A DNA stretch of 64,000 nucleotides from Astropecten irregularis (taxonomy: Eukaryota; Echinodermata; Asteroidea; Paxillosida; Astropectinidae), in contig OZ020249.1 in the NCBI GenBank assembly GCA_963971285.1, positions 4,898,001-4,962,000 on the forward strand, read 5' to 3'. Of this stretch, positions 1,091-64,000 are shown one piece after another. Position numbers and translations under genes: made by a program. The stretch's first letter is position 1. The number at the start of each line of letters is the position of its first letter. The notes below the pieces were generated by a model. It ran no database searches. It had not been told where the DNA came from and saw only the letters and a list, made by a program, of their open reading frames with translations.

Positions 1091-1136
1091 TTGGAAGCAG
1101 TTGCAGATAGTTGGGATGCACAGACATCGACCATAG
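1091..1136 (+). CDS. RhoGEF, DH-domain exon A (internal, 46 nt)
   Basis: An internal exon of a Rho guanine-nucleotide exchange factor, the class of proteins that load GTP onto Rho-family GTPases. A T-rich tract ending in CTAG precedes it and GTAAGT follows it. It starts in phase 0 and reads LEAVADSWDAQTSTIG, with the last G codon split after its first base. The pattern 'W...(S/T)IGDLF' formed with exon B is typical of the middle of DH domains, between conserved regions 1 and 2. At 46 nt it is too short for ORF prediction. It is supported by perfect phase agreement with exons B, C and E. Which RhoGEF subfamily this is cannot be settled from this part. The gene's start is outside the window. 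Confidence 0.82.
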
Positions 1137-2016: not shown

Positions 2017-2086
2017 GAGATTTGTTTGACGCTGAATTCCTGGGGGAATACCAGAACTACTTCGGCCATTTCAGGGTCATGCGATT
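2017..2086 (+). CDS. RhoGEF, DH-domain exon B (internal, 70 nt)
   Basis: The exon follows TTTTCCAG and ends before GTAAGT. It completes the split glycine codon from exon A and reads DLFDAEFLGEYQNYFGHFR followed by VMR, ending two bases into a leucine codon. The segment 'IGDLF....FL..Y..Y...F......L' is the DH pattern in which a long helix follows the W...IGDLF motif. The in-frame ATG inside it (near the 3' end) is unlikely to be a start. Entry phase 1 and exit phase 2 both fit the neighbouring exons. The 79-aa ORF that runs through this exon from the intron is an artefact of an open upstream frame. Confidence 0.87.
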
Positions 2087-4813: not shown

Positions 4814-5166
4814 GTAAGATCTTACCTAGACCATGGCCATGGTAGAAGCGTCCACACCGCGGCCCTGGGTAATGCTAATTCTACCACCACCAAACACACA
4901 CTAACACTAACACATGATGCAGTTGCTAGGAGCTGTGTCCAGCTTTGACAGAAACACAACATCTGATGTGTGTTGCTACGATAAGAAGAAGAACTGGACC
5001 AGTGGAGGAATAAGAAGGTCCAGCTTTATACTAGCTTCATGATCTGATGATTATTGGACACAAGAGTGACAAGTACAGACTGGTGTTGTTTAATAGGCAA
5101 TTTGATTTGACTGTACGCTTCAACGAACGAACGAACAAACAAATGCAGGACCAGCCGGTTCCTGGT

Positions 5167-5345
5167 GATGATAATCACCAGTTAAGTGAGAATTTAAGGA
5201 CAAACTCCCAAAGGGAGTTTGATGGGGGGCATCAGGAGACAGATGATAATCACCAGTTAAGTGAGAATTTAAGGACAAACTCCCAAAGGGAGTTTGATGG
5301 GGGGCATCAGGAGACAGATGATAATCACCAGTTTGGTCAGGAGGG
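5167..5345. repeat. 75-bp tandem repeat, two identical units plus a partial third
   Basis: Units start at 5167, 5242 and 5317, each with GATGATAATCACCAG. The first two appear identical over 75 bp, which indicates a recent duplication. The unit is a shorter relative of the ~100-bp units downstream, sharing the 'CACCAGTT..GTGAGAA', 'ACAAACTCCCA' and 'GGGCATCAGG' blocks. Because 75 is a multiple of 3, a 100-aa ORF (5047-5349) runs through it; I do not regard that as a gene. Confidence 0.85.
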
Positions 5346-6300
5346 ATGAACTCTTAGAGGGTAGTGGGGTACATCAAGGGACAGGGTGTCCAGGGGCCGA
5401 TTTCACTAACGTTTTGCGATCATCGCTTAAGCCCAAATCCATCACTAAACAGGAAAATTGTCACGCAAAGTAGAGAGCGATTTTCCGTTTAGCGATGGAT
5501 TTGGGCTTTAGCGATGATCGCAAAACGTTAGTGAAATCGGCTCAAGGGTTTTCCTTCTTGCCTCCCCTGGTTGAAGTATAACCACCAGTTTGGTCTGGAG
5601 GCGGACAAACTCCCAGAGGGAGAGGGGGACATGTTCAGGGGACAGCAGGGAGCCCAGGATCTTCCTTCGTGCCTCCCCTGGATGACCACCACTTTGGTGA
5701 GAAGGAACCAACCCCCAGAGGGTGGTGTGGGCATCAGGGGACAGCAGGGCACCCAGAATCTTCCTTCTTGCCTCCCCTGGATCATGGAGCTAGGAAGAGA
5801 GGATGATGACCACAGGTTTAGTGAGAAGGGACGAACCCCCAGCGGGTGGTGGGAGCATCAGGGGACAGCAGGGCGCCCATGATCTTCCTTCTTCCTTCCC
5901 CTGAATGATGACCACAAGTTTTAGTGAGAAGGGACGAACCCCCAGCGGTTGGTGTGGGCATCAGGGGACAGGTCGCCCAGGATCTTCCTTTTTCCTTCCC
6001 CTGAATGATGAACACCAGTTTAGTGAGAAGGGACAAACCCCCAGAGGGTGGTGTGGACATCAGGGGACAGGTCGCCCAGGATCTTCCTTCTTCCTTCCCC
6101 TGAATGATGACCACAAGTTTTAGTGAGAAGGGACAAACCCCCAGAGGGTGGTGTGGGCATCAGGCAGGGACAGGTCGCCCAGGATCTTCCTTCTTCCTTC
6201 CCCTGGATGATGACCACAAGTTTTAGTGAGAAGGGACGAACCCCCAGAGGGAGCAGGAGACAGCAGGGCGCCCAGGATCAGGATCTCTAGCCTCCTCACC
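5346..6300. repeat. ~100-bp minisatellite array, about 7 diverged units
   Basis: Units begin near 5573, 5683, 5802, 5904, 6003, 6103 and 6206 with GATGATGACCACAAGTT variants. They continue through 'AGTGAGAAGGGAC', 'CCCCCAGAGGG', 'GGCATCAGGGGACAG', 'GCCCAGGATCTTCCTTC' and 'CTTCCCCTG'. Spacing is about 99-119 bp. A fold-back MITE (5394-5543) interrupts one unit. Overlapping ORFs on both strands (5508-6323) all come from this repetition. Confidence 0.85.
5394..5543. mobile_element. Fold-back MITE, subfamily G1, inserted in the minisatellite
   Basis: The ends GGGCCGATTTCACTAACG and CGTTAGTGAAATCGGCTC are inverted repeats. Inner arms repeat GCGATCATCGCT and AGCGATGATCGC around GGATTTGGGC, so almost the whole 150 bp folds on itself. 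Related copies lie at 41713-41836 and 58568-58719. The flanks CCAGG and AAGGG with TTTTCCTTC match the uninterrupted unit CCAGGATCTTCCTTC, so the insertion point is visible; AGG may be the target duplication. Confidence 0.85.
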
Positions 6301-9649: not shown

Positions 9650-9752
9650 GTTGCTGGTTTTCTTGAGGAATAGCAACAAGGACTTTGTCAATCTGTGTCG
9701 GGAGAAGCGAGGCACGTCCTGGCACACCTTGGACTCGCTGCTCTTGCTGCCG
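9650..9752 (+). CDS. RhoGEF, DH-domain exon C (internal, 103 nt)
   Basis: The exon follows TTGGTCCAG and ends before GTAAGTCC. Its first base completes the leucine codon of exon B. It then encodes 34 residues including LLVFLRNSNKDFVNLCREKR and a C-terminal LDSLLLLP, ending on a complete codon (phase 0). The pattern 'NKDFVNLCREKR....L.SLLLLP' is the DH helix that leads into conserved region 3, which continues in exon E as VQRISQY. The usual lysine before the proline (KPVQR in many DH domains) is leucine here; other RhoGEFs also lack that lysine. Subfamily not assigned. Confidence 0.92.
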
Positions 9753-18924: not shown

Positions 18925-19324
18925 TTTAGCCCTGTCCTCACTAGACTTTTTTTTGGGCAAAGTAACCGAGACTCTGGTTAGTTTACCCATTTTAAGTCCA
19001 GTGCGGACGTCTCAGGAAGTCTACCTCTCAGTTACTTTGCCCGAGCCGCGCGGGTATTTCTACCGGCCAACTTCTGCCCGGGTAGAATGCCCCAGACACT
19101 TTACCCGAGACGAATAGTCAGTGCGAGTGCAGTCAGTGCGAGTCAGGTACCTGCATGAGGCTTGTATTGTCAGCTCGGTAATTCTTCCGTGCGTGCACGG
19201 TTAAGTTACCCTCGAGTCAAAAGTCCAAGTGCGGACACCGGTAATATTTGCCTATTTTTCATTTACCCATTGGCTCGCTTAAATCCCCGGAAAAAAAAAC
19301 AATTCCAGTGCAGACAGGGCTTTA
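18925..19324. mobile_element. MITE with AGCCCTGTC ends, ~400 bp
   Basis: The left TTTAGCCCTGTCCTCACT and the right CCAGTGCAGACAGGGCTTTA form imperfect inverted repeats. Inner arms use GGGTAAA/TTTACCC and AAGTCCAGTGCGGAC/GTCCAAGTGCGGAC words. TTTA at both edges could be a target duplication. One copy was seen. Confidence 0.65.
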
Positions 19325-21115: not shown

Positions 21116-21678
21116 TATCATACTTAAGTGTTTGTCAATATACAGATTCATGGGCAAAAATATCAAGGAAGATACAGTAACAGCCATCGGTGAAAATTTC
21201 AGTCCCATACGGTGCCCACCTTTTGAGAAAACAGTGAAAAACAGCCACAGTATTTCTTAAGTCTTTTCTCTTTTATTTTTAGTCATTGAAAAGTGAACAA
21301 AGAAAAATTGACTGGAGCGGGATTCGAACCGGCGACCTCCTGAACACCGTACAGGCGCTCTACCAACTGAGCCATCCAGCCCTATGTTGGTGGTGACCCC
21401 AATAGTCAACTATCCTTGTTCGTTTGGCAGTCAGAAGCCATGAAACCACGCACACACCGCCACACCCCAGGGGTCGTTTCAATGATACACGCAACATTTT
21501 TGATCAAAAAAAGATTTTCGGTCGTTGTTTTACTAATTTCTGGATAAATACACCATTTCAGGCGGAACATTTTTAACGGTATGTTTCTACCACCACCATC
21601 TTCATACCCTGTAAGTTATAGGTAAATCTGTGAACATTTCTGTTTTGGTTTCTTACCAAAGTATGATACTACCTTTAA
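21116..21678. mobile_element. MITE family M1, full length, interrupted by a SINE
   Basis: Starts TTAAAGGTAATATCATAC and ends GTATGATACTACCTTTAA with TTAA at both edges. It lacks the usual central GATCTTTTAAAAGATC; at that point a ~214-bp tRNA-SINE (21281-21494) sits between TTTTATTTTT and CATTTTTGATC. Removing the SINE leaves ~350 bp, the family length. Confidence 0.85.
21281..21494 (-). mobile_element. tRNA-derived SINE, best-preserved copy
   Basis: On the minus strand it has GGCTGGATGGCTCAGTTGG (box A), AGAGCGCCTGTACGGTG, then GGTTCGAATCC (box B) and TCAATTTTTCTTTGTTCAC. About 80 bp lie upstream of box A (GGTTTCATGGCTTCTGACTG, AACGAACAAGGATAG). ATTTTT flanks both sides as a possible short target duplication. 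It is intronic and not a functional tRNA gene, because of its tail and insertion context. Confidence 0.85.
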
Positions 21679-22543: not shown

Positions 22544-23418
22544 TTGTAGTCCCCCACAACTGAGGATCTAGAGCGGAGCTATTGATGTGAGCGGCTGACT
22601 TCAGATCTGAGACTTGCTTCAGCAGGATCTACAGTCTACACCTTCAGCAGCAGCACCTTTCTGCTGTACTGAGGACAGACGTACAGACTGCATTGCAACT
22701 GAGGCCTCAAATTTCTTAGCAGCCGGCAAGATTTTCCTCAGTGAGTGTCTTGCTAGGCCTATGTCTTGCCAGGGGGAGTACTTTCCCTTGGTGATTTTGG
22801 TTTTACCCTTGGCTACCCAGTCTTTTGGGAATTTCGTCTTTGCTCCACCAGCCCAGGCCCAGCAAGCTTGAGGCAACACTGTCCATTCCATCTGCTGGAG
22901 ACACAGGTCCTAGAGCCTGTCTGACTAGACTGTGATGATGATGAAGTGAATGACCTAGTATTAATGCAGCTCCAGTTCTGTCCTGAGACTAGAAATGCAA
23001 CCACTCCAGAAGAGATAAGCACCAGAATCCCTAAGATAACCTGCTTTTCTTGGACCTATAGGCAGAGTGTTCCTAATCATCAGTCTACTGCCATTACCAT
23101 CAGCCCTATCTGCCCGGAGTTCCAACAGGATTTAGTTTCCAGCTGGAATCCACTTGAGTCTCCTCTTGAAATTATCTCAGATTCCTTTTAGTAGTTCTCG
23201 CTCCAGTAAAATTTTGGACTTCTAAAATGTGTTGCTGGTGATAACTGGAACCGCCTGATGGTTGTCTCCGCTTGTAAACTCTGAACACAAACAAAGTTTT
23301 GAAGAAGGCTTTAAGACAATGCGGAATTGATTCAAACTTTTCAGTTCTCGTTAACTGTCCAACTATCTGATCTGTTGAAATTTCTTTCGGCCGGACCTGA
23401 CTCTTTGCGTTTTGCACG

Positions 23419-23643
23419 ATGGCGAAAGACAGCATCTTGGTCTCGTCGCAGAAGCCGCGGAAGCGCTCCAAGTCCCTGGACCGGCGCTGGCCACGGCGCA
23501 ACAAGACGTCCACGGTACGTTTTGCCGAGGTGTCGGCTCCCATCAAGATATCTCAGCCGTCCCAGCCCAGGAGGATGAATTCGTTCTCCGATTGGGAGAG
23601 CTCATTGCGAGTGGATTCCAAACTTCCTGTAATCAGCCCTCCG
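23419..23643 (+). CDS. RhoGEF, candidate alternative first coding exon (75 codons)
   Basis: ATGG in a fair start context is preceded by an in-frame TGA at 23398-23400, so the start is well defined. The 75 codons end exactly at the donor CCG|GTGAGT, in phase 0. Exon E begins in phase 0, so the two join as ...VISPP|VQRISQY. Exon C also ends in a CCG proline codon. The peptide is basic and serine-rich: RKRSKSLDRR near residues 14-23, KTSTVRFAEV at 29-38, then a P/S-rich stretch. RSKSLD resembles a basophilic-kinase or 14-3-3 site, and TVRF is loosely like a PP1-docking motif; both are guesses. Local base composition is clearly more GC-rich than the flanks. The predicted isoform would lack the DH domain N-terminal to conserved region 3. 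A separate gene spliced to exons beyond the window is the main alternative. Confidence 0.65.
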
Positions 23644-26272
23644 GTGAGTTTAGTTACATTAGGCCCCTATCCTACACCCTTAATTGCAAGAAAACAAAAC
23701 ATTCCTTCTTTAAACTAGACTGGTTGAAAAGAGGGATTGACTTTAGATAATGATGTAAAACCCAGTACTAAGCAGGGGAAAGAACAATTTGTTGTAGATT
23801 TAATGAAATAATAATCAGTTGAATATGCCCTTTGATATTGGAAAATTTTGTACAATGAGCATGATGTAGTTTTTTTTTCATTGTCCTGTAAGTGGACCTA
23901 GTATTAAATAGTAATAAGTAATATGCAGAATTGAACACAATGTCCTTAATTATAGTGATTGATAAAACATGCACTGGACATGCAGAAATTTCATCTTTGG
24001 TTATTTCCTAAATTCCCTTCGCATAACAAATATAATGTGTTCTCATTTCAATGTCAAAATAATGATGATTTTCCTTTATTATTAATCATGACTTTGGTAC
24101 AATTTACATCATCTACCAGTAGTCTTGACAAGTTGACAGCTCCTGGCTGTCAAGAAATGGGCCATCAAAATAAAATGGACTGTTTGTGACAGCTCTCAGC
24201 CTCAGAGGCAACCGGGCTGGTTATTTCTAGGTTTTGCCATTCTTCACTCAGTTCACTGTGAAACTGTCAACTCTCTGCTCATAAATTCCCATGAAAACAT
24301 CCATTAATACATGGATTTGTTTAATGAGAGATGAATAGGGCCTAGTCAATTCATGGTCAATTTACCCATTCTCTCCTAGTGGTGACTAAAATCCATCATG
24401 TAATGTAATGTTATACCATAGAGGAACTCTACTGATCAAGCTCTGATATTCTGATAATTTTGCTGGAAATCCCCCCAGTCGGCCAGTATTTAGCAGTAAG
24501 GGCAGAGTCAGTTGCCATTAACATGCCATGACTAACCAGATAATTCTCATTGTAGTCACCATGGAATGCCAGTGTTGAAATGAACACAACATGTACTGTA
24601 CATAGCCAGAACAGAGTGCCGCTGCGTTGTTGTATTGTCAGGGGGATCGCTCATACATTCAGATGGAATTTACATCTGCAAGTCATTTTTAAACACCAAT
24701 TCCAGAGTCATAACTCTGGCCGCTGAATGTAACATACAGGGATATCTATTCCAATAATCAGGTCTTAGTTCCTGTGTGTCTCTCTCTCGTGGGATGTAGT
24801 CCTGCAACTTGAAGGATTTCAGTCACTAATGAATGTGGGTGTTCTATTCCCGGAATATCGAAGAGTGAACTTGTGTAAGGATGAGGAGAGGAAATCCTGT
24901 TTGGTGTTTATCATGTGTGGTCCTCTCAGATTTCCCTCTCTGCTCCTTACTTCCCTGTTTCCAAGGATGGAAGTTGCACCCATGACAGCCTCAGGGCTGC
25001 CTTCTCTTATCACCTTGTACAGGAAGGAAGTGGACCTAACACGTTTAACCTGTGGGTGATTTGGATGCACAATAATCATCCGTGCCTAATCCCAATTAAT
25101 TGCTTGAGTTCACTCATTAGAGCCTGGAGGGGCTAAAGGTGTACAATTGGACCAACCTGTCAATGATGTTCAAGGTGTTCCTTGCTAAGCAAACTAGCTA
25201 AGCAAAATTAAGTTGCTCTGCCAATTTGTTTGTTTCACGCTAAAGACAAGTACTGCATGTTGGGTTCTCTACAGTTTGGCAATACTCTGTTGTTCTCTGA
25301 AAATGATCGTGCTTGAGACTAGCTCTTGGAGCTTGGAATCTGGCCTGAGCCCCTTACACTTGACAGCCTCCCTACCCCTTCCCAAATCTGTAAACCCCCC
25401 TCCCTTCTGCTTCTGTATGCTTCCACCTATCGGCTCCACTTGTTTTTCACGCTTATGTACTCCGTTTGAAGTTAAACCTTATTGATAAGTTGAAGGGGAC
25501 TAGCATAAATTGTCTTTGGCAAATTGTGAGCTAGAACTTTCTTGTAGAAAAGACATATCTTAATGTCTGTTGAAATTCTTGAAGAGCACTTATTAGTCAG
25601 CGAATGATAAGTTGACGGAGAAATTAGAGAAGCAGTGGGTAGGAGGCTAATGTTTCAGGTCAACTAGGGACTGGGGCAATGCAGGAAAGGCAATGACCAG
25701 TTCCTGCAATGAGGCAATGACCAACAGGGCTCTCTTGCTGCGACCAAGGGCACCAAAGCAATTGGCCAAGGGCACCAAGGCAATGACCGGTCAGCAGAGG
25801 TGTAAACTATGAAGGTGGTGGTCATTGCTTACTTGAAGTTCAGGCCCGAGCAAAATTCACATGCTGACCGCCAGGGCCATGGAAACATAAAAAGAACAAA
25901 GCACACAAGAGAGAATCCGTCCACTTAAAAAAAATCCTTCAGAAACAAATTTGTTGCCAGGCAACAACTTTGACCAGACATTTTGATAAACCATTCATTC
26001 TCACACCTAATTCAAGCAAAGTGACAAAAATCACAGGTGCTGTAGAGGAATAGAGGATTTTTTTCTTTGAGGCCCATGTAGTTTTTTTATTTTTAGTATC
26101 TTCAAGGACAGTCTGGAGGGGAGTGAAGACCAATACAATTTGACCAAGGCTTCTTAGTAGTGATGCAGCATGCAGGAAAGATCCCCTGACTGACCTGCTG
26201 AAGCAATTACTGTTAGTGTTGGTTAACTTGGATTTTCATATTATTAGATCTGCAGGCATTGCTGCCAATAGC
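23644..26272 (+). other. Intron C-E after the alternative exon; no gene recognised
   Basis: It begins with donor GTGAGTTTAG. The ORFs at 24819-25485 overlap on both strands and show no domain. The only notable item is the minisatellite-like patch at 25676-25797. Confidence 0.5.
25676..25797 (+). repeat. Short cluster of GGCAATGACC / GGGCACCAAGG units
   Basis: GGCAATGACC or GGCAATGCA words occur several times, with GGGCACCAAAGCAATTGGCC and GGGCACCAAGGCAATGACC at the end. The last unit equals the 21-bp unit of the array at 63645-64000. The spacing is irregular. Confidence 0.7.
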
Positions 26273-29981: not shown

Positions 29982-31802
29982 GACCCCGTTCCCACTAGAT
30001 CCACCAATTGGGGGATCTGATCCACCTTTTGCCAAATTGCCGGATCAGATCCCCCAATTGGTGGATCAAGCGTGTAGTGGGGACGCAAACCGTTATAAGG
30101 TGGATCAGGATCTGATCCACCTTTCTTGATCCACCTCCAGAGTAGGATACAGATCCCCCAATTGGTGGATCAGATCCGGCAATTGGATTATCACGATAAG
30201 TGGAAACGCAAAAGGTGGATCTGATCCGGCAATTTTACCTGTCAATATCCGGCCTGTACACGAGTGGCGCGAAAATGTTGCGGTTTCGTGAAAGAAGACT
30301 TCGGCCATGTACATGTAGATTATGTGACAATCCGCAACGGGCTTGACATACACTATAAACAACAACTAAACTACTGTAAAATCTGTAGTGTGTGCATCAT
30401 GCATGTAGCTACACATGTATTAAAATCATGGAGGAAGGAAATCGTACAAGTAGACACGCATTTCATTTGAGATTTTGTTCCTTTTTTGCATTTTGCGAGC
30501 TTACTTTGATCGACTGCTTTGGAAAACACGAGGTATTTCACCCCGAACTGCCCGAAAGTAAACAGGGCGGATCGAACCAATTTCAGGCCAATTTGGGGGG
30601 TGACAGAAAAGTAAAATAGAACATTATATTTATTGGAATCAATTAATACCCATAAAATAAAAAGAGAACAGAGCAAAATGATTTCATAGATTATGTTAGT
30701 GCGATTTATCAGAGTCTTATATCATGAAAGAAAGGGGATAATATTTTAGTTGCCGATTTAATTATTTTATGGTTTATCTATTCCCCCTGCGTAGAATGGA
30801 TTGGTCCAAAATGGCTGTGCAACCACGTGCTGGATTTTGTAATATTCTCCGAAGTTCTGAGTTGATAAAAAATGTCTTTTTATCATCATAATCATTGAGA
30901 ATGAAATTTATATTTCGTGTGCTTTGTCAATTTGTTATTTTAAAGAATAAATACGCCCATTCGTACTTAAGTTCGACCCCAATAAAATCCTGAAACGAAC
31001 GTCCAGATCGGCACAGTGCATGCATTTTCACAAGGTACGTGAAATTTTTGTGTGTCCATCCAACAAATAATTATGTTTCGGTGATCTTTGTGACGGAAAA
31101 TAACTCAAAATACATCATTTATCATTTATTTTAAAGCACTAAAACATGCTGGGGTACACAAATATGACAAATATTCAATAATTTGTACATTATTCCTGAA
31201 CTAAACGATCGCTAAAATGGTAAACATGTGAAGAGCCGTCACCCCGGCCCGTTACTGAGCGACGATCTAGTACTTTCGTTTCACCCTCGTCAAAATGTGA
31301 GAATTAACCAAACAAAAATGGCCTTTAAAACCTTCCCCGATATTTCATCAAAAATAAAACTTTGTCTGCATTAATTCATGGTGATATTTTAACAGACTAG
31401 TTTATGCAAGGATTAGGCCATCTTAGCTCGAAAAACTTGATCAAATTTTGGCACGCTGTAACTGAAGACGTTGTAGGAATGATCTTTACGCTCTCCGATC
31501 TGTTACACACAGTTTGTTTCAGCGGGCCGCGGGACAGACATAACATTCTGGCGGCCATTCACGTGGCCGATCGCCCATGGGTCTTGCTTTGGAACACGCT
31601 GATCATGCCTACCCAGCATGGAAAGCAGAACGCGCGCTCTCCCTGTCAACTCTGACCTTTTAAGACTCGACACTTCCGCTTAAAAAGGAGGATCAAGCTC
31701 GAGTGGGAACGCGACTTGCGGTTTTGTTGTGGGTAGATAACGATCATTAAAAATGCCGGATCTTGATCCACCTTTCCCCAAAACAAGTGGGAACGCGGTC
31801 CC
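29982..31802. mobile_element. 1.8-kb fold-back element, GGATC-rich ends
   Basis: The left GACCCCGTTCCCACT and the right AGTGGGAACGCGGTC are inverted repeats. The first ~250 bp are packed with GGTGGATCAGATCC and CCAATTGGGGGATC words that are inverted within the same arm. The right arm has GGATCTTGATCCACC. Secondary AGTGGAAACGC and AGTGGGGACGC words (about 30095 and 30197) resemble the terminal motif. The 1.4-kb interior encodes nothing recognisable. One copy was seen. Confidence 0.7.
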
Positions 31803-31978
31803 TGTTTTACTCAAACCACAAACTATTAACACCTCATTGAGCTTTCCCAGCAGGCCCCCAAAATAGACTAGTAGTAGGCATGGGAAGTTATTTGCTGCTC
31901 ATTTGAGTGTGTCCAATAAAATGTCTGTGTCAGTCAAATGAGTGAACTCATTCAACTACATATTGGTTGAAGATCTCG

Positions 31979-60684: not shown

Positions 60685-60795
60685 GTGCAGCGCATTTCTC
60701 AATATGACAAGTACCTGTCCGAGTATTATGACCACATCCCACCAACCCACCCCGACTACACTAACGTCTGTCAAGCAACTCGCAACATCAGAACG
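60685..60795 (+). CDS. RhoGEF, DH-domain exon E (internal, 111 nt, conserved region 3)
   Basis: The exon follows the acceptor TTTCCAG, ends before GTAAAAT and starts and ends in phase 0. The 37 residues begin VQRISQYDKYLSEYYDHIPP and continue THPDYTNVCQATRNIRT. 'PVQR...Y...L.......P..HPDY......A...I' is conserved region 3 of DH domains, the long helix that helps form the Rho-binding surface. The proline before VQR comes from exon C or from the alternative first exon. Common DH domains have L-L-L after the tyrosine region; here it is DKYLSEYY, a noticeable departure. The rest of the DH domain and any PH domain lie downstream. Confidence 0.93.
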
Positions 60796-63644: not shown

Positions 63645-64000
63645 GCAGGGGCACCAAGGCAGTTGCCTCTGCTGTCTCTGTTAAGTTCAATCCCTGGGCA
63701 GTGGGCACCAAGGCAATGAATAGGGGCACCAAGGCAATGACCAGGGGTCACCAAGGCAATGACCAGGGGCACCAAGGAACTGACCAGAGGCACCAAGGCA
63801 ATGGCCAGGGGCACCAAGGCAATGACCAGAGGCACCAAGACAATGACCAGGGGCACCAAAGCAATGACCAGAGGTACCAAGGCAATGACCAGAGGCACCA
63901 AGGCAATGACCAAGGGAACCAAGGCAATGACCAGGGGAGGCAAGGACCAGAGGCACCAAAGCAATAACTAGGGGCACCAAGGCAATAACCAGAGGCACCA
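63645..64000 (+). repeat. 21-bp minisatellite, at least 14 units, runs off the window
   Basis: The unit is GGGCACCAAGGCAATGACCAG, slightly varied, running from about 63703 to the end. Earlier partial units are at 63645-63702. Because 21 is a multiple of 3 and the unit has no stop in several frames, ORFs appear on both strands (MTRGTKA / GHQGNDQ on +, VIALVPL on -). These are repeat artefacts. A related cluster lies at 25676-25797. Confidence 0.92.

Follow-up and report, generated by a model that had tools for sequence, protein, structure and literature searches.

A Putative Alternative First Exon in the DH-Domain Intron of an ARHGAP20-Like Gene of Astropecten irregularis

The 64,000-nucleotide stretch of Astropecten irregularis DNA analyzed here (hereafter, the window) contains a 75-codon open reading frame (ORF) that is probably a real, used alternative first exon. 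With moderate confidence, we propose that a gene with DH, PH, RA, and RhoGAP domains has an alternative transcript whose coding sequence begins with this ORF, and that the choice of promoter would switch the product of the gene from a combined GEF-GAP to a GAP alone. A first-pass annotation of the same DNA had described the ORF, its signals, and its place in a DH-domain intron, and had taken the gene for a RhoGEF whose short form might act as a regulator or dominant-negative. Our results supported that annotation in part: the description of the ORF largely held, whereas the view of the gene did not, because the same frame reaches an ARHGAP20-type PH domain, with RA and RhoGAP exons farther downstream.

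The predicted host gene and its domains

The analyzed region comprised the window (C12:4898001-4962000) plus 100 kb on each side (264 kb in all), and coordinates outside the window continue its numbering. The features are listed in Table 1. When exons A, B, C, E, F, G, PH1, and PH2 were joined, the phases matched and the resulting 914 bases contained no stop. In that single frame Pfam detected both a RhoGEF domain (2.7e-14) and the RHG20_PH domain (1.8e-34); this one-frame chain and the domains were computed directly. Addition of the CR1 exon, with 30 filler X residues standing for an unfound exon, gave a RhoGEF match of 6.5e-19 covering profile positions 1–176 of 180, so that, with the filler included, conserved DH regions 1 through 3 were present in the joined chain. 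Searches by pattern, by a phase-constrained scan, and with a small profile did not recover the DH exon expected between CR1 and A. Exon F aligned to the end of the DH domain as solved for collybistin, FARP2, and P-Rex1.

The RA and RhoGAP exons continue on the same strand beyond PH2, the open frame having been checked from A through PH2. The RA domain (PF00788) matched at 3.5e-10 and the RhoGAP domain (PF00620) at 3.8e-32, with the exon borders inside RhoGAP approximate. Against PDB, the RhoGAP exons were closest to 3msx (ARHGAP20, 6.2e-47), the next family scoring 9.5e-18. The arginine of the GIFR motif, which has a role in RhoGAP domains, was present in this match (GIFRKSAN here vs. GIFRQSAN in 3msx). 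The ARHGAP20-specific PH profile (PF22286) gave 1.3e-34 in the joined short product and 1.8e-34 in the long one. The PH also matched the SOS1/NGEF-like PH family in Pfam (3e-9), a type found after DH domains; such a match is expected if the PH and DH belong together. The exon assignments from G to RhoGAP lean partly on the human sequence, and the Pfam and PDB matches are independent of it. The locus looks like a DH-PH-RA-RhoGAP gene, an ARHGAP20 preceded by a RhoGEF domain, and from its predicted domains it seems able to switch Rho proteins both on and off.

Table 1. Features of the locus, in the numbering of the window
Feature	Position	Strand	Remarks
Other first-exon candidate	-38035 to -37430	+	202 codons, phase-0 end; strong first-exon score
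CR1 exon, DH region 1 (RLAVLNEIISSERVYCNLLQSIFMTYKEPL)	-10604 to -10502	+	Upstream of window; needs one base from preceding exon
Exon A, DH domain (LEAVADSWDAQTSTIG)	1091..1136	+	Pfam RhoGEF when joined; missed by exon scan
Exon B, DH domain	2017..2086	+	Pfam RhoGEF when joined; scan score 11.3
Exon C, DH domain	9650..9752	+	Phase-0 end, CCG; Pfam RhoGEF when joined
Putative promoter or 5' UTR region	23169..23418	+	CpG observed/expected 0.92 vs. 0.52 for window
In-frame TGA, 5' of ATG	23398..23400	+	Stop-to-stop frame begins at 23401
Putative alternative first coding exon (ORF)	23419..23643	+	75 codons, phase-0 end; ORF, codon bias, single copy
GTGAGT splice donor	23644..23649	+	Phase 0, directly 3' of ORF; PWM score 7.1
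Exon E, DH domain from VQRIS on	60685..60795	+	Phase 0 at both ends; weak donor (0.9); Pfam RhoGEF when joined
Exon F, last DH helix	66590-66709	+	Beyond window; phase-0 start; aligns to solved RhoGEFs
Exon G	79622-79704	+	Beyond window; phase-0 start
PH exons PH1, PH2	84818-85003, 85707-85901	+	Beyond window; ARHGAP20-type PH
RA exons	91232-91470, 91808 on	+	Beyond window; Pfam RA
RhoGAP exons	92428-92751, about 93360-93539	+	Beyond window; Pfam and PDB matches; borders approximate
Long last exon	ends 96687	+	Beyond window; terminal-exon score 273.8

Two results limit how the exon chain is to be read. A RhoGEF family search of the 475.7-Mb genome gave 41 matches, none of them at this locus, which was counted against the assignment; single exons are too weak to register in such a search, and the DH domain is visible only after joining. 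The exon scan recovered 10 of the 14 other assigned exons (one partially) whereas CR1, A, G, and GAP1 escaped it. Run on the window's minus strand, the internal-exon scan gave eight candidates above 10, the best at 26.9 and the next at 15.6. Because the minus strand gives comparable scores, it is homology, and not the scan score, that supports exons such as B (11.3) and E (14.7). Elsewhere in the genome (C29:1781697-1783883), three tandem DH domains lie in a single open frame of 929 codons.

Exon C ends in CTGCCG/gtaagt and exon E begins ttccag/GTGCAGCGC. The intron between them, annotated earlier as 51 kb, measures 50.9 kb; it interrupts the DH domain and contains the ORF. At the 5' end of the region, the other first-exon candidate may start the long form; exons bridging its phase-0 end to CR1 were not found, so its membership in the gene is a guess. 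Kinship between the two first-exon peptides was considered and rejected as too weak, their best local match (RRMNSFSD / RRLRSFSD) being equaled in 35 of 2000 shuffles. Farther upstream, at -47443 to -46550 and -42326 to -41349 on the + strand, two very similar transporter-like ORFs stand in tandem, as judged by eye.

The open reading frame at 23419–23643

Translation of the ORF gave 75 residues (MAKDSILV...VISPP). The stop-to-stop frame begins at 23401, which places an in-frame TGA, the annotated upstream stop, just before it, six codons ahead of the ATG. The start context had been graded fair; with A at -3 and G at +4 it is better than that grade. The phase-0 GTGAGT donor was present and strong. 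It scored the same as that of exon C (7.1), with exon F at 7.6 and exon E at 0.9, on a generic splice matrix. The shared last codon, CCG, which would keep a proline at the end of either exon C or the ORF, and the phase-0 start of exon E were likewise as described.

Coding potential was scored with a model of 3,814 codons taken from long ORFs and exons at this locus and at RhoGEF loci in the same genome, the ORF itself being left out of training. The coding-like composition, together with the donor and its phase, was computed directly. The ORF had a codon log-odds score of +35.9 bits in frame; the two remaining sense frames gave -16.2 and +19.3. Read antisense, the three frames scored +1.5, +26.1, and -12.9, each with at least one stop. 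The frame reaching +26.1 holds one stop and was counted against the coding reading; because of it, the codon score alone parts the two strands only modestly. The internal-exon scan listed no minus-strand candidate at the ORF. In bins of 10 codons from the ATG the scores were +5.2, 9.4, 7.0, 4.2, 5.0, 3.5, -0.9, and -0.8, the last bin extending into the intron; the bin directly before the ATG scored -8.9, and those past the donor -6.3 and lower. The coding bias sets in with the start codon and tails off at the donor.

With codon and donor scores combined (43.0), the ORF was the best first-exon candidate on the + strand of the window. On the + strand of the 264 kb it ranked ninth among 19 candidates above 20, and some of the eight that outranked it belonged to the codon-model training set. 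None of 100 simulated 64-kb strands, generated by an order-4 Markov model built from the window with the ORF removed, reached 43 (best, 12.9). The reversed window yielded no candidate above 20, and the reversed 264 kb yielded three (best, 27.0). The best score on the minus strand of the window was 6.0. Two minus-strand candidates exceeded 20 in the 264 kb (37.4 and 25.9), each lying opposite a + strand ORF taken as coding. These controls confirmed that the ORF exceeds chance. Tandem repeat tracts at about 5160-6290 and 63660-64000, recognized by eye, hold long spurious ORFs in several frames; the former, near 5.6 kb, was the source of the runner-up first-exon candidate in the window (24.7) and of the top minus-strand internal-exon candidate mentioned above.

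A repeat origin was ruled out, the ORF being single copy in the genome: a search with 701 bases of DNA from the region found no second copy, and the protein, apart from itself, had a sole match with an E value of 5, a chance match. The 75 residues had no match in Pfam or in PDB, and the N-terminal half of human ARHGAP20, searched against the locus, gave no match to the ORF. AlphaFold2 run on the single sequence returned a pLDDT of 64.9 and a pTM of 0.14, with one short helix at residues 56-62 and little other structure, which offered no fold to search with. The segment is basic and serine-rich, and probably disordered; these residues, described earlier as a gained tail, would form the N terminus of the protein. 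A tRNA-Thr (GGT) gene lies about 2 kb before the ORF on the - strand (21309-21381; 51.2 bits, Rfam).

Proposed promoter region, splice partner, and short product

The CpG observed/expected ratio of the region 5' of the ORF (Table 1) resembled that of the 250 bases 5' of the other first-exon candidate (0.91). Among the 14 other exons, one had a 5' flank above 0.9. The 3' flanks of both first-exon candidates had a ratio of 0.00, a value found for none of the other 14. This pattern fits a transcription start 5' of 23419 and is no proof of it. By the cut-off used for the ORF region, 18951-19300 and 31451-31850 were equally GC- and CpG-rich.

From these features we infer an internal promoter, a transcript, its splice partner, and the activities of the products, as follows. 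A long form, begun upstream, would carry exchange and GTPase-activating domains in one protein. An internal promoter directly 5' of 23419 would drive a short transcript, in which the 75-residue N terminus would be spliced in phase 0 to exon E, or to exon G with the remaining DH bypassed. The short product would lack DH regions 1 and 2, for which reason it should not catalyze exchange, and would retain PH, RA, and RhoGAP. Because these three domains follow downstream, we expect the short form to be RhoGAP-only, and not merely a dead or dominant-negative RhoGEF. Promoter choice would thus decide whether the gene yields a GEF-GAP or a GAP-only protein, and on the predicted domains such a switch appears a better idea than that of a merely crippled RhoGEF.

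The junction 23643-60685 proposed in the first-pass annotation preserves the frame, as stated there; it is not the sole choice, since exons E, F, and G all start in phase 0 and the ORF can be joined in frame to any of them. The acceptor scores (6.5 for E, 4.4 for F, and 6.6 for G) do not single out a partner. Exon E, the nearest acceptor, is our first choice, because alternative first exons usually splice to the next common exon; exon G is favored solely by the resemblance of its product to the vertebrate layout. Joined to E, the ORF is followed by a DH remnant of 42 profile positions that fails the family threshold: the ORF+E+F product kept positions 135-176 of 180, at 26.5 bits (8.7e-6) against a cut-off of 27.6, which bears out the predicted loss of regions 1 and 2. 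Joined to G, it would give a product without any DH, followed by PH, RA, and RhoGAP.

Four other explanations were weighed. If the exon joins E and RhoGAP belongs to a separate downstream gene, the product would be only a truncated, inactive or dominant-negative RhoGEF. Exon E is the nearest downstream acceptor, in phase 0 and with a score of 6.5, and the F-G junction is a prediction from the frame. We nevertheless judge this explanation unlikely: E, F, G, and the PH exons form one open frame with matched phases, the downstream PH is of the ARHGAP20 type, and no convincing in-frame terminal exon was found between E and G (best, 9.6, excepting read-through of F at 14.5 and 12.5). It seems quite improbable that the ORF instead opens an unrelated gene, whether one nested within the intron or one located farther downstream. 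Short partner exons may hide from a scan that missed 4 of 14 other exons; against this, at a threshold of 10 the internal-exon scan of 22–61 kb gave nothing but the ORF, exon E, and a 9-codon candidate, and no convincing phase-0 terminal exon was found at 23.7–60.6 kb (scores of 7.0 or less vs. 273.8 for the gene's own last exon). A more distant gene would have to be reached by leaping the whole RhoGAP part.

The same bases could also serve as a cassette exon (23452-23643) between C and E, in phase 0 at both ends and adding 64 residues to the DH domain. An AG precedes 23452, both phases fit, and the total score is 39.8. To this we give very little credence, because the acceptor is weak (3.0 vs. 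4.4 to 6.6 for E, F, and G), the coding bias is already present from the ATG, which lies 33 bases before the start of such an exon (+5.2 bits over codons 1 to 10), and the insert would disrupt the DH. Least probable of all is a chance ORF, an antisense shadow, or a relic exon without a product. The antisense frame with a single stop speaks for it, as does the fact that the ORF is known here only as a sequence prediction. Against it stand the score of 43.0, far from the simulated best, the sharp coding onset at the ATG, the intact donor, and the minus strand, which offered neither a first exon above 6.0 in the window nor an internal exon at the ORF.

Relation to known Rho regulators

Human ARHGAP20 (RA-RhoGAP, RARhoGAP), like vertebrate ARHGAP20, has the layout PH-RA-RhoGAP. 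The gene described here is like it in its PH (RHG20_PH), RA, and RhoGAP matches and in exon G, where 'KTLASRRRSAPSAALKTAL' resembles the human N-terminal 'KTLAERRRSAPSLILDKAL' (64% over 22 residues, E 0.10). It is unlike it in having a DH domain, which the human protein is not known to carry, upstream of the PH and in frame with it. If joined to G, the proposed short isoform would share the human layout.

BCR and ABR combine a DH-PH exchange module with RhoGAP in one protein; such a combination may be present here, given the open frame from A to PH2 and the RA and RhoGAP exons on the same strand. BCR was the best PDB match of the partial DH (0.0015); with CR1 and F included, the nearest was collybistin (7.9e-10), with BCR at 9.6e-8. 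BCR and ABR have a C2 domain between PH and RhoGAP, whereas the present gene has RA in its place, C2 being absent from the Pfam matches of the PH-RA part. Its RhoGAP was nearest to ARHGAP20, and BCR was absent from the 12 PDB matches at 1e-8. With the Dbl-family RhoGEFs collybistin, FARP2, and P-Rex1, the DH aligned along nearly its full length (30 filler X included). Those proteins are not known to have a RhoGAP domain, and here, unlike in them, an internal first exon would take away DH regions 1 and 2.

Published accounts touch on several of these points. The PH of ARHGAP20 is listed in a review (PMC7915224), its targets are tabulated as RHOA, RAC1, and CDC42 (PMC7281527), and 3msx is cited as the ARHGAP20-RhoA structure (PMC12240320). 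BCR is described as having both exchange and GAP activity and is called unique in joining Rho-activating and Rho-inactivating activities (PMC6505627). RhoGAPs were stated to have not yet been compared comprehensively with basal metazoans included (PMC7600811). Among the matches listed in our literature search, whose coverage is mostly outside subscription journals, no title or abstract opening named a DH-bearing ARHGAP20.

We tentatively suggest, at less than even confidence, that ARHGAP20 descends from a dual DH-PH-RA-RhoGAP protein, that this genome keeps the dual gene together with an internal promoter whose use removes the DH, and that the vertebrate protein is the short form, fixed when the DH exons were lost. 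Depending on the promoter, the gene would then yield either a protein potentially able to activate as well as inactivate Rho proteins or a Ras/Rap-bound inactivator. If true, this would suggest the origin of vertebrate ARHGAP20 and why its PH resembles those found after DH domains. Rho-activating and Rho-inactivating domains are rarely found in one protein; a second such architecture, with a built-in loss of one half, would allow a clean test of why one polypeptide should hold opposing activities.
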